Source of the DNA: Minisyncoccota bacterium
Lineage (GTDB): Bacteria; Patescibacteriota; Minisyncoccia; Phycocordibacterales; UBA9973
Assembly (NCBI GenBank): GCA_017991395.1
Contig: JAGOQQ010000003.1
Span: 66,400 to 109,084 of the forward strand
Reading direction: 5' to 3'
DNA: 42,685 nt
Shown one piece after another: positions 5,359-39,362 of this stretch. Each line of letters begins with the position of its first letter. Position 1 is the first letter of the stretch. A program made the position numbers and the translations under genes. The notes beneath the pieces were generated by a model that saw only the letters and a program-made list of their open reading frames with translations, did not search any database and had not been told where the DNA came from.

Positions 5359-5364
5359 AGTATA
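5359..5364 (-). promoter_or_regulatory. Extended -10 promoter, leaderless, of the 817-aa surface protein gene
   Basis: TGA-TATACT reads on the minus strand with only 7 nt between the end of the -10 hexamer and the ATG at 5351. Transcription would therefore begin at or within a base or two of the start codon. No clear -35 element is seen. Confidence 0.6.
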
Positions 5365-21614: not shown

Positions 21615-21620
21615 ATTTTA
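21615..21620 (-). promoter_or_regulatory. Extended -10 promoter, leaderless, of the small Fn3-like gene
   Basis: TGT-TAAAAT on the minus strand ends 6 nt before the ATG at 21608; a possible -35 TTGCTT lies 18 nt further upstream. Confidence 0.55.
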
Positions 21621-21690: not shown

Positions 21691-23232
21691 CTATTGAATC
21701 ACAAGTGTCTTCACAATTCTATTGTTATTCTCGTTTTTTTCCACCACCACATTTGAGGTATCCGCTCTGAGAGTGAGGGTGTAGGCACCAACGGTCGCAC
21801 GCATATTTGGTGTTGCCTGTGAAGAAAAGTTGAAAGTATGTGTTCCTTGGGGTGGGATTGTCACTGAAGTTCCAAAGTTTATATTATTCACAGCCAAGAC
21901 TGAAGGTGCAGTACCACTAAAAAGCTTCATTTTATGGTTGGCGGGGATTGCCAGAGGAACAGCACTATCGTTTTTGATGGTAGCGGTAAAAAGAATGTAC
22001 TTGTTTGAAGTGCTTTGTGAAATAGGATTATTGTGCCCTGGTCCAATCGGTACACCCCAAATCGGCTCCTGCCATTTGAGATCGGTAACGGTGATGTCTG
22101 GGAGACCGAAGGAAATCGGGGTAACTACGACTTGGTGTCCCATACGACCACTATTCCACGGCACTAACGAAAGCGTGTTAACCCACGTGGATAAAGTTGT
22201 GTTAAATAACCAAATATCTTTATAGTAATTCTGCCAAGATATATCTCCTCCTCCTAATAAATACAAAGTGTTATTCAAGGAGAAAGTTTTATGCCAACCT
22301 CGAGATGACCAAGGACTTCCGGCAGCTATCTGTGACCAATTCACCCCATTTGTAGAAACCCATGTATCATTTAAAGTACCTGAACTTGTTGAATTACCTC
22401 CTGTAAGGTAAATCTCGTTATTAAATGAAGTAGTTGATGAAAAAGCTCTTGGTCCCCAGGGAGCATCTTGTATGCCGACAATTGTAGGATTTGTATCAAC
22501 ATGAGTCCAAACAATACCATCAGGTGTTGCCCAAATATCATTGGAATAGGAGTTTCCGGCAGACGTCATGACAAACATCATTCCGTTATGAGACACAGCA
22601 CTGGTCATTATTTTTGTATTTTGCCATGGTGCATCTTGTATCCCCGCCTGTGCACTATTTGTATCGACATGAGTCCAAACAGTCCCATCAAAAGACCATA
22701 TTTCGTTTCCTACATATGGAGAAAATGGTGAATAATGTCCTCCAATTAGCCATATTTTATTATTAAATACTGTATACGCGTATATTTCTCTTGCTGACCA
22801 TGGAGCATTTGAGGTAACCAAATTCCAATTTATACCATCAACGGAATTCCATACATCATTAAAATACCCCGCAGCATGCACTCCTCCCATAACCCAAATT
22901 TTATCTTGAAAATAAAAAGCTGCAAAATTAGTACGATTACTCCATCCTGCATGTTGCTGAATAAGATTCCAAGAAATTGCGTCGCTACTAGTCCATATAT
23001 CATTATAATTTGTGACAGCATTGTTTCCTCCCATCAAAAAAACTTTTTCAGTTGGCGGAGGTAGTGATGCAACCCTAGCATTCAGTTGATCTCCCGAAAG
23101 AGGAACGGCAATATCAGATTTTAAAGTTGTTGCGTGTTGTGTATTAGAGGTAAAAGTGTTTACTTGTGTAAAAAAAATTCCGAGAACAAAAAGCGAGAGT
23201 ACAATAGTAGGGAGTATGTGTATTTTTTTCAT
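21691..23232 (-). CDS. Exported kelch-type beta-propeller protein with CARDB-like C-terminal domain
   Basis: 513 residues. An N-terminal hydrophobic segment (about 8-25) serves as signal or anchor. Residues ~60-370 contain repeated kelch-like units of the form [VL]WVMGG...YFNDVW...DGxxW, at least six times (MGGNNAVTNYNDIW, VMGGVHAAGYFNDVW, LIGGHYSPFSPYVGNEIW, LTGGNSTSSGTLNDTW, LLGGGDISWQNYYKDIW), consistent with a beta-propeller. The C-terminal ~140 residues (PDITVTDLKW, FTATIKNDSAVPLAIP, YTLTLRADTSNVVVEKNENNN) resemble a CARDB adhesion-type domain. The ligand is unknown. Its own -10 box (TACAAT) lies 9 nt before the ATG. Confidence 0.85.
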   Translation of the reverse strand: MKKIHILPTIVLSLFVLGIFFTQVNTFTSNTQHATTLKSDIAVPLSGDQLNARVASLPPPTEKVFLMGGNNAVTNYNDIWTSSDAISWNLIQQHAGWSNRTNFAAFYFQDKIWVMGGVHAAGYFNDVWNSVDGINWNLVTSNAPWSAREIYAYTVFNNKIWLIGGHYSPFSPYVGNEIWSFDGTVWTHVDTNSAQAGIQDAPWQNTKIMTSAVSHNGMMFVMTSAGNSYSNDIWATPDGIVWTHVDTNPTIVGIQDAPWGPRAFSSTTSFNNEIYLTGGNSTSSGTLNDTWVSTNGVNWSQIAAGSPWSSRGWHKTFSLNNTLYLLGGGDISWQNYYKDIWLFNTTLSTWVNTLSLVPWNSGRMGHQVVVTPISFGLPDITVTDLKWQEPIWGVPIGPGHNNPISQSTSNKYILFTATIKNDSAVPLAIPANHKMKLFSGTAPSVLAVNNINFGTSVTIPPQGTHTFNFSSQATPNMRATVGAYTLTLRADTSNVVVEKNENNNRIVKTLVIQ

Positions 23233-23337: not shown

Positions 23338-23355
23338 TGTTTTGTTTCGTTCTAC
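23338..23355 (-). other. 3' arm of the 16S rRNA processing stem
   Basis: TGTTTTGTTTCGTTCTAC on the plus strand is the exact reverse complement of 25126-25143 on the other side of the 16S gene. The 18-bp perfect pairing would form a long stem enclosing pre-16S rRNA, as RNase III substrates do. Confidence 0.75.
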
Positions 23356-23842
23356 TGATTGTATGTCTTTCCATACAGTCAGATAGTTTATAGTCTCTAT
23401 CAAACTTTCCTGTGCTCAATTGAGGCACAGGAAATCGACGCCGTAAGTCATTTGCCATAAACATGGACAAATGGACAATTTCAAATTGAATTATTCCACG
23501 ACCAGCTTCCGCTAGCCGTGCCTTGTTACGACTTATTCCCTGTCACCGAGCTTACCGTAGGCCCCTCTTATGAGGAGATTTCGGGTACTCCCGGCTCCCT
23601 TGAATTGACGGGCGGTGAGTACAAGACTTGAGAACATATTCACCGCGGTTTAGCTGACCCGCGATTACTAGCAATTCCAGCTTCAAGGAGTCGAGTTGCA
23701 GACTCCTATCCGAACTGAGGCTATTTTTATAAGGATTTGCTCAGAGTCGCCTCGTCGCTTCCTGTTGTAATAGTCATTGTATTATGTGTGTGGCCCAAGG
23801 TGTCAAAGGGACATGCTGACCTGGCGTCATCCTCTCCTTCCT

Positions 23843-23950
23843 CCCAGAACGGAACTCGCAAAACGTAAATCGTAAAGCGTGGAGCGTTAAATGCAAATGC
23901 ATCTGACGTTCTACGTTCTACGTTCTACGGCTTACGTTCTCTGTTCTGGG
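23843..23950 (-). repeat. Palindromic expansion of 16S helix 39
   Basis: CCCAGAAC pairs with GTTCTGGG and encloses about 92 nt that are absent from the canonical helix 39 hairpin. The insert holds four tandem-like ACGTAGA/ACGTTCT units on one side and partly complementary ACG-spaced units on the other, so it forms a long imperfect hairpin. Confidence 0.75.
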
Positions 23951-24175
23951 CGGTCTCGTGTGACACGTATAACACACGACGAGGGTTGCGTTCGTTACCC
24001 CACTTAAGGGAACAATTCAAACCACGAACTGACGACGGCCATGCATCACCTGCTTACTAGTCTTGCGAGGGCTCCGGTTTCTCGGAGCTTTCACGTAAGT
24101 TTCAAACCTTGGTAAGGTTCTTCGTTTATCGTCGAATTAAACCACATAATCCACTGCTTGTGCAAGTCCCCGTCT

Positions 24176-24207
<32 letters not shown>

Positions 24208-24570
24208 TCCCAGGCGGATATCTTAACGCGTTAGCTACGCCTCTCAGAGGGTCGATACTCCGAAAGACTAGATATCATCGTTTAGGGCGTGGACTACTGG
24301 GGTATCTAATCCCATTCGCTACCCACGCTTTCGTGCTTGAGTGTCAGATGTGTGCCAGTATATTGCCTTCGCATTTGGTGTTCCCCTAAATATCAACGGA
24401 TTTCACCCCTACACTTAGAGTTCCATATACCTCTCACACTCTCTAGCTTTGCCGTTTCCCCCGCGGTTTCCAAGTTAAGCTCGGAGATTTAACGGGAGAC
24501 TAACAATGCCACCTACGCACCCTTTACGCCCAATAATTCCGGATAACGCTCGGGGCTCTCGTATTACCGC

Positions 24571-24592
24571 TCCTGCTGGCACGAGATTAGGA
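24571..24592 (-). other. 530-loop pseudoknot with compensatory change in 16S rRNA
   Basis: In RNA sense UCC (24590-24592) stands at the place of E. coli 505-507 GGC, and GGA (24571-24573) at the place of 524-526 GCC, with the normal 16 nt between them. Pairing is conserved although both sides differ from the near-universal sequence. The 515F primer site has two mismatches as a result. Confidence 0.8.
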
Positions 24593-24707
24593 GCCCCTTA
24601 TTCATGAGGTACCGTCAATAAACTTCTTCCCTCATAAAAGATCTTTACGTCCCAAAGGACTTCATCAATCACGCGGCGTCGCTCCATCAGACTTTCGTCC
24701 ATTGTGG

Positions 24708-24738
<31 letters not shown>

Positions 24739-25125
24739 ATGGGCCGTGTCTCAGTCCCATCGGTGGGGGTCAGGCTCTCACCTCCCCTAGACGTCATAGC
24801 CTTGGTAGTCCTTTACACTACCAACTAGCTGATATCCCGCAGGCCGTTCCTTGAGCGAAAAACTTTACTCCGGAGAGTCTATCGTGTATTAGCTCACCTT
24901 TCGATGAGTTGTTCACGACTCAAGGGTACGTACCCACGTGTTACTACCTCGTTCGCCACTAACTTTTAAGAGTATTCATAATCATTCCATATTGCTACTT
25001 CATAATCACTTCAACAATAAAAGTCCGTTCGACTTGCATGCCTTATCCACGCCGCCAGCGTTCATCCTGAGCTAGGATCAAACTCTACTTAAAAAACTCG
25101 TGAGGACCGAAGTCCGCCACAAGCC

Positions 25126-25143
25126 GTAGAACGAAACAAAACA
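25126..25143 (-). other. 5' arm of the 16S rRNA processing stem
   Basis: GTAGAACGAAACAAAACA on the plus strand, exact complement of 23338-23355. It lies about 35 nt before the mature 5' end of 16S rRNA. Confidence 0.75.
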
Positions 25144-31126: not shown

Positions 31127-32284
31127 ATGATGAAGAAAATTTTTAGAACACCGCTTCGAGTTCTGTATGCAGGTACTGTATTTTTTGCATTTCAAACTGC
31201 AATTACTGCGTACGTGAATTCGACAGCAATGCGTGAATATCTTCGCGGAAGCGATGTGGGTATTATCTATAGTAGTTCGGCATTGCTGACCATACTTGGA
31301 TTGTATCTAATTCCGCATGCGCTCAAAAAATTTGGGAATTACAAAACTTCACTCTTTCTTATTTCGGTATCGCTTATATCTCTGACTATAATTGCAACAA
31401 TACGCCACCAAAGTGTCTTGTTGTTTTTTATCATTTACTTGATGACCAACACGCTGATTTCGTATTGTCTTGATATTTTCATTGAGCATCACTCTGAGAC
31501 AGAAACTACCGGTCAGACACGTGGTGTCTATATGACAATCATCAATACTGCATGGGTCTGTGCACCACTTCTCGCAGGAGTACTTGCTACAAAGTATATA
31601 TTTAGCGTATATCTTCTCGCTGGACTGACCACGCTTCCACTACTTCTAGTGCTTATCGCAAAGTTCTCAAAATTCAAAGATGCACACTATGATCATATTT
31701 CTTTCCGAAAGACATTTGTTCGACTACTCAACTCAAAGAATCTTAGAAATATTTTCACTTCAAATTTTTTACTTCATTTCTTTTATTCATGGATGGTTGT
31801 CTTTAGTCCTCTGTATCTCGTCAATGAGCTCGGTGCAACATGGACAGAAGTAGGTATCATATTCACAATTATGCTTCTTCCGTTTGCACTTTTTGAGTAC
31901 CCTTTTGGTAAAATTGCTGACAAAAAAATAGGTGAAAAAGAATTGCTTATTCTTGGATTTTTGATTATAAGTATTTCAACCGTACTTTTTGCATTTAGCC
32001 CAGGCGCATCGCTTGTCATACTTACACTCATTCTCTTTTTGACACGTACTGGCGCAAGTATGGTAGAAATAATGTCTGAGACATATTTTTTCAAAAAAGT
32101 TGATGAATCCGATAGTGAACTTATCAGTATTTTCCGCTACACTGCGCCGCTTGCATATCTTGTCGGACCACTGACAGCGACTGTGTTGCTCCAGGTGGCG
32201 ACTTATCAAACACTTTTCGCACTACTTTCAATAATTATGCTGACCGGTATATATTTTTCATATGAAATCAAAGACACAAAATAA
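31127..32284 (+). CDS. Major facilitator superfamily transporter
   Basis: 385 residues with about 11-12 hydrophobic helices. The loop GYIxxKxADKKIGEKELLILG-like region (YPFGKIADKKIGEKE, about residues 262-276) resembles the MFS loop between helices in the second half. The substrate is unknown. Two ATGs stand in tandem (31127 and 31130); AAGGA lies one nt before the first and four nt before the second, the only place in this operon with a purine-rich motif near a start. The end overlaps the next gene by 23 nt. Confidence 0.88.
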   Translation: MMKKIFRTPLRVLYAGTVFFAFQTAITAYVNSTAMREYLRGSDVGIIYSSSALLTILGLYLIPHALKKFGNYKTSLFLISVSLISLTIIATIRHQSVLLFFIIYLMTNTLISYCLDIFIEHHSETETTGQTRGVYMTIINTAWVCAPLLAGVLATKYIFSVYLLAGLTTLPLLLVLIAKFSKFKDAHYDHISFRKTFVRLLNSKNLRNIFTSNFLLHFFYSWMVVFSPLYLVNELGATWTEVGIIFTIMLLPFALFEYPFGKIADKKIGEKELLILGFLIISISTVLFAFSPGASLVILTLILFLTRTGASMVEIMSETYFFKKVDESDSELISIFRYTAPLAYLVGPLTATVLLQVATYQTLFALLSIIMLTGIYFSYEIKDTK

Positions 32285-32993
32285 CAATGATGATGAGGCA
32301 ATTCGCCTCAATCTTCACATGGCCCAAATAGGACTCACGACTCGTCGTGGTGCTGATGAACTCATTAAAAAAGGAGAGGTTTTTGTAAATGGTAAAATGG
32401 CCGTACTCGGTCAAAAAGTTTCTCCTTCTGATAATATTGAGATTCTGGCACACGCCGCCAAAGTTCCACATGTATACTATGCATACAATAAGCCAGTCGG
32501 AATTGTCACAGTAAACCCTGGAAGTGGCGAAAAAGATATTTTAAGTACCACCACATTTCCAACAAAAGTCTTTCCAGTGGGACGACTCGACAAAGATTCA
32601 CATGGACTTATCATCATGACCAATGACGGCCGTGTCACTTCACATCTTCTTTCTCCAGAAAAAGATCACGAAAAAGAATACGTAGTACAAACTGATACTG
32701 ATTTCAATGAATTTTTTCTCGACAAACTTTCACGCGGTGTAAAATTTGATACATACACCACAAAACCATGCAAAACAAAACAGCTCGATTCTGATACTTT
32801 TTCTATAATTTTGACAGAAGGAAAGAACCGACAAATCAGACGGATGGTTTCGATATTTAGACATTTTGTAAAAGATTTGAAACGTGTCCGAATAGAAAAT
32901 ATCAAATTAGGTCCACTCAAAGAAGGCAAATTCCGCGCAATCGAAGGCAAAGAGCTCGACACATTTTTGAAAAAAATTGGAATAAAAAAATAA
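32262..32993 (+). CDS. RsuA/RluB/E/F-family pseudouridine synthase
   Basis: 243 residues. An N-terminal S4 RNA-binding domain (about residues 15-62: LNLHMAQIGLTTRRGADELIKKGEVFVNGK) is followed by a pseudouridine synthase domain with FPVGRLDKDSHGLIIMTNDG, whose Asp is the catalytic residue, and EGKNRQIRRM. The composition fits the RluF/RluB side of the family, which modifies 23S rRNA; RsuA (16S) is less likely. The start overlaps the MFS gene by 23 nt. The terminator begins within its stop codon. Confidence 0.92.
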   Translation: MKSKTQNNNDDEAIRLNLHMAQIGLTTRRGADELIKKGEVFVNGKMAVLGQKVSPSDNIEILAHAAKVPHVYYAYNKPVGIVTVNPGSGEKDILSTTTFPTKVFPVGRLDKDSHGLIIMTNDGRVTSHLLSPEKDHEKEYVVQTDTDFNEFFLDKLSRGVKFDTYTTKPCKTKQLDSDTFSIILTEGKNRQIRRMVSIFRHFVKDLKRVRIENIKLGPLKEGKFRAIEGKELDTFLKKIGIKK

Positions 32994-39333: not shown

Positions 39334-39362
39334 ATTATACCACGGTTATATTAATAAATCAA
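39334..39362 (-). promoter_or_regulatory. Promoter of the CAP-domain gene, leaderless
   Basis: TTGATT (39357-39362), 17-nt spacer, TGG-TATAAT (39334-39339), then 6 nt to the ATG at 39327. It is the best-spaced leaderless promoter in the window. Confidence 0.75.

Follow-up and report, generated by a model that had tools for sequence, protein, structure and literature searches.

The single 16S rRNA gene of the genome analysed here lacks the anti-Shine-Dalgarno (anti-SD) core CCUCC, and this loss extends across the order Phycocordibacterales, to which the genome belongs. The short 16S tail that holds the anti-SD is how most bacteria locate the starts of their genes, and few parts of bacterial rRNA are more conserved. 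The explanation that we favour, and consider quite likely as a whole, is that translation in this order would start independently of Shine-Dalgarno (SD) pairing and partly on leaderless mRNAs, and that the old anti-SD segment would be kept as an arm of a hairpin for maturation of the 16S 3' end.

A full-length 16S rRNA gene without CCUCC

The window (the whole stretch of DNA that was analysed, 42,685 nucleotides) contains a complete 16S rRNA gene (Table 1), which is single copy in a genome of 762,851 bp that is 99.9% complete, and which sits in a 109-kb contig. Downstream of helix 45, the conserved UGGA is present (23498..23495, minus strand) and is followed by AUAAUUCAAUUUGAAAUUG, as compared with UCACCUCCUU after UGGA in the consensus; the tail reads UGGA-AUAAUUCAAUUUGAA where UGGA-UCACCUCC is expected. 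Since the only copy ends in AUAAUUCAAUU, no 16S copy of this genome carries CCUCC, and the gene is not merely truncated, as helix 45, UGGA and the pre-16S processing stem are all present. Neither CCUCC nor even CUCC occurs from helix 45 to the trailer arm of the processing stem, ~145 nt downstream. The preliminary description of this DNA had reported a 16S rRNA without an anti-SD and without CCUCC in the next ~60 nt; the former is borne out by the sole full-length gene with its intact helix 45, and the latter holds further, up to the processing stem.

Table 1. Features of the 16S unit and putative promoter boxes discussed in the text (window coordinates)
Feature	Position	Strand	Remarks
16S rRNA gene	25093..23484	minus	Rfam RF00177 positions 1-1533, 1344.5 bits, full length
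Leader arm, pre-16S processing stem	25143..25126	minus	18-nt perfect complement of trailer arm
Trailer arm, pre-16S processing stem	23355..23338	minus	18-nt perfect complement of leader arm
Helix 45, GGCUAGC-GGAA-GCUGGUC, intact	23517..23500	minus	From sequence; length and position as in CCUCC-bearing relatives
Anti-SD core position, A-U-U-C-A in place of C-C-U-C-C	23487..23491	minus	From sequence and order-wide tails
Hairpin UUCA-AUU-UGAA spanning spacer	23480..23490	minus	5' arm 23490-23487 (mature tail), 3' arm 23483-23480 (spacer)
-10 box TATAAT at -12, predicted leaderless mRNA	39334..39339	minus	Before ATG of gene 39327-38296
Extended -10 (TGATATACT, -10 at -13), predicted leaderless or near-leaderless mRNA	5359..5364	minus	Before gene 5351-2898
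-10-like box TATATT at -12	32250..32255	plus	Before gene 32262-32993
-10-like box TAAAAT at -12	21615..21620	minus	Before gene 21608-21114

The 18-nt complementarity of the processing stem exceeds anything seen in 1000 shuffles, which give 12 nt or less; one earlier shuffle control had reached 18, and the maximum of 12 comes from the repeat with 1000 shuffles. Because this leader/trailer stem is perfect and no CCUCC or CUCC precedes it, the tail lies inside an intact pre-16S unit. A CCUCC hidden downstream, or supplied by splicing or editing, is rejected, as neither CCUCC nor CUCC occurs before the stem.

Genomes assembled from metagenomes often mis-assemble rRNA, and in one genome of the order a short contig bears an additional 16S end of the CCUCC type, so that an assembly error, a chimera, a pseudogene or a truncated 16S, with the true CCUCC gene elsewhere, has to be weighed. 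We regard this as extremely improbable: the tail is common to independent genomes of dozens of families, the near-complete genome has its one 16S gene within a long contig, the leader-trailer stem is intact and the mRNAs lack SD motifs. The preliminary description had itself raised assembly error and a second 16S copy with CCUCC; the former is excluded because the tail type recurs in relatives throughout the order, and the latter was not found in the 99.9%-complete genome. Restoration of CCUCC after transcription, by splicing, trans-addition or editing, deserves just as little credence. Introns are frequent in patescibacterial rRNA genes, and the 16S of some genomes in the order matches the model in several pieces; against this, the tail, the hairpin with the spacer and the processing stem lie in one uninterrupted stretch here, with CCUCC absent before the stem, and a restored anti-SD should keep SD motifs in the mRNAs, where these motifs are gone.

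The 16S gene also contains an insertion-like stretch (~23850-23955 in the window) made of ACGTTCT repeats, with three 14-nt copies at 23906-23947. There are 26 copies of its core, CGTAGAACGT, in 760 kb of the genome, and a dispersed repeat may therefore have entered the rRNA gene. The 16S gene is not linked to the 23S gene, landmarks of which are located on another contig (G000:C8, ~57-59 kb), and no 23S, 5S or tRNA genes were found in the window. Directly 3' of the 16S unit is the gene for a 513-residue Kelch-repeat protein with a CARDB domain (21691-23232, minus strand).

Spread of the loss across the order, class and phylum

Our sample of the order comprises 247 genomes, 117 of which have a readable 16S 3' end, yielding 120 ends. 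CCUCC is absent in 119 of these, and the comparison with relatives that the preliminary description had proposed reveals a tail type common to the whole order. The sole exception comes from G282: besides a 16S copy of the order type, this genome has a second one on a short contig. This second end (G282:C6:260-332) has the canonical GGATCACCTCC and a foreign-looking helix 45, and it is probably from a contaminating contig. When a pattern derived from the tail was searched over one genome per GTDB species, the matches listed included Candidatus Nomurabacteria, Kaiserbacteria, Taylorbacteria, Zambryskibacteria, Adlerbacteria, Yonathbacteria and Harrisonbacteria.

Of 94 genomes from outside the order but within the class, 32 have CCUCC; by manual count, about nine of the 94 have only CUCC and the remainder have AU-rich tails. 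Beyond the class, most of the tails listed for the phylum still have CCUCC or something close to it. Tails are mixed in families f51 and f255, where helix 45 of G844 and of G763 looks different from that of their kin. Independent anti-SD losses inside these two families are suggested by the sequences; mis-binned 16S contigs are an alternative, so loss is not claimed there. Relatives thus occur in apparently intermediate states (CCUCC with SD, CCUCC without SD, CUCC variants and full loss), and these make testable the order in which SD use, Era and the anti-SD were lost, as well as the other roles of the tail.

The replaced segment is conserved and probably pairs with the spacer

The preliminary description had CCUCC replaced by AU-rich sequence. 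The replacement stands; simple AU-rich decay does not, as UUCAA is conserved and forms a hairpin with the spacer. In 87 dereplicated tails of the order, positions 5-9 after UGGA read UUC(A/C)A, with 80, 86, 76, 62 A plus 23 C, and 82 of the 87 tails agreeing at the successive positions; from position 10 onwards the tails are variable. A spacer arm complementary to positions 5-7 is found in 58 of the 87 tails, compared with 14.0 ± 3.3 in shuffles. The fourth pair of the hairpin, which lay outside the search, is A-U in 39, C-G in nine and unpaired in ten. The pairings seen are UUCA/UGAA and UUCC/GGAA, together with GUCA/UGAC in a single lineage and CUCA/UGAG at three loci, and the 4-bp match is lost when 3' parts are swapped between tails with different arms (34 matches with their own parts versus 6.8 ± 2.2). 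About one third of the order's tails lack a strict 3-bp hairpin arm. The usual hairpin is absent from the 16S ends of L010 and L016, which have the tails AUAUUUAAUUUUUGAU and ACAUAUCCUGAAUUU.

Where relatives keep CCUCC, the pairing at these positions is CUCC/GGAG (for example, in CCUCCUUUCUAGGGAG), and the partner is missing in some CCUCC lineages. The mature 16S rRNA of B. subtilis terminates at CCUCCUUUCU (PMC5732282), where the loop of such a hairpin would end; the Rfam end of the present gene, 23484, likewise falls in the loop. We infer from these patterns that the tail keeps a role in the precursor hairpin after the loss of its role with mRNA, and that the replaced segment probably survives as half of a hairpin for 3'-end maturation. 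With a weak, short stem, and with the strict arm missing from a third of the tails, this role is a supported inference rather than a demonstration.

SD motifs and pairing with the tail

Genes were called from codon-pair statistics without use of a ribosome-binding signal, with start codons taken from our own gene caller, and SD motifs (AGGA, GGAG or GAGG at -19..-4) were scored against dinucleotide shuffles. These and the promoter statistics below cover one near-complete genome, 100-580 kb from each of five relatives, and pooled loci. The fraction of genes with an SD motif is at the shuffled level in the present genome (0.035 versus 0.038, 661 genes), in G061 from another family of the order (0.047 versus 0.047) and among genes pooled from the order's GTDB loci (0.094 versus 0.085). 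The same method finds SD in E. coli (0.53 versus 0.32). Among relatives with CCUCC, the excess of AGGAG/GGAGG is small but clear in G858 (0.059 versus 0.028), G278 (0.078 versus 0.023) and G695 (0.046 versus 0.011); G674 has no SD signal despite its CCUCC. Among the analysed members of the class, SD use is weak, and those without CCUCC have none. SD loss and anti-SD loss are not tightly tied, since G674 has one without the other, which suggests that SD loss can precede anti-SD loss. Both elements of a functional SD/anti-SD system, a CCUCC tail and enriched SD motifs, are missing in the present genome; the earlier statement that canonical SD pairing is impossible is supported from both sides, by the order-wide loss of the tail and by SD motifs at the shuffled level.

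A new SD matching the new tail is likewise rejected by k-mers, position and duplex energy. Among 4- to 6-mers, those that complement the tail show no enrichment at -19..-4 in the two genomes analysed, and are slightly depleted; the duplex energy of upstream regions with the tail is -0.66 in the present genome and -0.70 in shuffles (E. coli control, -5.19 versus -3.94); and neither TTGAA nor TTGGA has a positional peak upstream of starts.

Promoter boxes at start codons

The k-mers that are enriched before start codons (TATAC, ATACT, GGTAT and ATAAT) correspond to -10 promoter boxes. The first T of the box peaks at -12 from the ATG in the present genome, in G061 and in the pooled loci of the order. 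A box at exactly -12 is found for 67 genes of the present genome (25.0 ± 4.5 expected), 41 in G061 (11.8 expected) and 52 in the pooled named loci of the order (14.3 expected), and for 0 of 36 in E. coli. The 67 genes, chosen by the -10 box alone, display features that were not selected for: an extended -10 with TG at -15/-14, T at positions -35/-34 and, in 91% of them, a pyrimidine at -1. A TA-like box ~12 bp upstream is a published criterion for leaderless genes (PMC3160421), and the box together with the unselected features looks like a promoter with transcription starting on the A of the AUG. Many mRNAs of the order are accordingly predicted to be leaderless.

Over the wider interval -16..-12, a -10 box precedes 24% of the genes in the present genome, or roughly 160 genes, compared with 11% after column shuffling and 7% in windows placed farther upstream; strictly scored boxes are found for about a quarter of genes (24-27%), where 7-11% are expected. 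The leaderless genes are a real and substantial set, as indicated by the exact -12 phasing, the extended -10 and the pyrimidine at -1, and they fall short of a demonstrated majority. They are not specific to anti-SD loss, since G858, which keeps CCUCC, also has the -12 peak.

Leaders overall are A-rich and are poor in G at -12..-4. Genome-wide, U occupies -1 in 60% of genes and G in 5%. Since U is also preferred within tight gene clusters (65%), this is not purely an effect of transcription starts, and the -1 U might extend the pairing of the start codon with the initiator tRNA.

Proposed explanation and alternatives

In the explanation that we favour, start selection would no longer take place through rRNA-mRNA pairing. 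A substantial share of genes would be started on leaderless mRNAs, and the remaining genes through G-poor, AU-rich, unstructured leaders, U at -1 and coupling to the upstream gene. Without SD pairing and without Era, which binds GAUCACCUCC, the main constraint left on the old anti-SD segment would be that it forms the 5' arm of a hairpin for 3'-end maturation, which would be cleaved in its loop. Because the arm would be the main remaining constraint, the segment could have drifted, and its partner with it, from CUCC/GGAG to UUCA/UGAA. A stronger version holds that the anti-SD has been exchanged for a conserved 3' element, UWAWUUCAA, which would be a maturation signal with no part in start choice, pairing with the spacer in the precursor before cleavage in the loop, and that starts would have become leaderless or U-AUG across a very large clade; this we put forward tentatively, at somewhat less than an even chance. 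If it is true, the 16S tail's two ancient functions, in maturation and in pairing with mRNA, would have been separated in nature.

The alternative that comes closest overlaps with our explanation and differs in proportions only: initiation would occur mainly on leadered, unstructured AU-rich mRNAs, in the manner of Bacteroidota, with leaderless mRNAs as a minority side route. We consider this quite possible, if a little less probable than its converse. Just ~13-17% of genes are in excess of the expected -10 boxes at -16..-12, the leaders have the G-poor and A-rich composition described above, and many genes are in tight clusters where a leaderless state is impossible; yet the -12 phasing, the extended -10 and the pyrimidine at -1 mark a leaderless set that is real. 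It is unlikely, in our estimate, that relaxed selection alone left a tail without any remaining role, the hairpin and the UUCAA conservation then reflecting common ancestry. Lost tails elsewhere in the class are diverse and AU-rich, and many have no hairpin, as this would predict; in the order, however, UUC(A/C)A is almost invariant across dozens of families with positions 10 onwards free, and the fourth stem pair varies on both sides. Conservation so strong at the anti-SD position (positions 5-9) would also be expected of a pairing element, such as a new anti-SD that recognizes new SD motifs (for example, UUGAA). This is very unlikely given the slight depletion of complementary k-mers, the duplex energies at the level of shuffles and the absent TTGAA/TTGGA peak, and earlier surveys found no compensating SD in bacteria without an anti-SD (PMC6107228).

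Comparison with known systems

The number of genomes known to lack the anti-SD was 15 in 2012 (Lim et al., as summarised in PMC3522020) and 128 in 2018 (Amin et al., PMC6107228), and 112 SD-scarce organisms without CCUCC were given in 2024 (PMC10783764, category iv); Table 4 of the latter already includes isolated Parcubacteria, one Campbellbacteria and one Wolfebacteria genome, without CCUCC. The view in the preliminary description that such losses occur mostly in highly reduced symbionts is too narrow, as they also include many Flavobacteriia, hemotropic mycoplasmas and others (PMC6107228, PMC3522020, PMC10783764). The present genome resembles these in that CCUCC is gone, helix 45 is kept, and both the SD signal and a compensating SD are absent. 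It differs from them in that the loss spans a whole order with very many families, and in that the replaced block is conserved and still paired with the spacer, together with a leaderless promoter signal. Surveyed losses are scattered over Flavobacteriia, hemotropic mycoplasmas, insect symbionts and single genomes of the candidate phyla radiation, whereas here the loss covers an entire order within one of the most abundant uncultured groups. In the open-access literature, we found no paper on the anti-SD in Parcubacteria or the candidate phyla radiation as a clade; what appears to be new is that the loss covers the order, that its replacement is conserved and still pairs, and that a promoter signal for leaderless mRNAs goes with it. 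In practical terms, both gene prediction with SD-motif scoring and heterologous expression may fail for genes of this clade.

SD-independent initiation in Flavobacteriia and other Bacteroidota likewise involves mRNAs without SD and with AU- or A-rich leaders, but Bacteroidota ribosomes generally keep the anti-SD (PMC6847099), which here is gone, and here -10 boxes abut the start codons. A sequestered anti-SD of the Bacteroidota type, in which CCUCC is occluded by bS21, bS18 and bS6, does not apply, as CCUCC is absent. Anti-SD loss is not known in TA-led (leaderless) genomes such as those of Deinococcus and Actinobacteria. These share with the present genome a TANNNT/TATAAT box ~12 bp before the start codon (PMC3160421, PMC12340547).

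Era, YbeY, S1 and bS21

Only one of 238 genomes in the class has an Era match over the family cut-off. This class is thus essentially without Era, unlike mammalian mitochondria, which have the Era homologue ERAL1. Mammalian mitochondria are similar in that their small-subunit rRNA has no anti-SD (PMC10582724). The KH domain of Era binds GAUCA and CCUCC (PMC10582724), and Paceibacteria were reported to mostly lack era (PMC12641178), with which our count agrees. Era loss as the specific cause of anti-SD loss is unsupported: Era is missing class-wide, including from genomes that keep CCUCC, and its loss can therefore be at most permissive. The 2025 survey of ribosome biogenesis in the phylum (PMC12641178) states that annotation of the 16S 3' terminus is frequently incomplete; a search of its text for the anti-SD found nothing.

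A protein with at least three S1 domains (372 residues) is kept. YbeY, the 16S 3'-end endonuclease, is also kept, both in the present genome (98 bits) and in 34 of 40 relatives. The bS21 match of the present genome is weak (20.1 bits), and those in the order are mostly ~20-27 bits; the protein is present and appears, from these scores, to have diverged in the order. Its scores do not separate lineages that lost the anti-SD from those that kept it, as the two overlap. YbeY adjoins the weakly matching bS21 gene on the same strand at G000:C3:10532-11114, and also at G015:C2:45685-46247.
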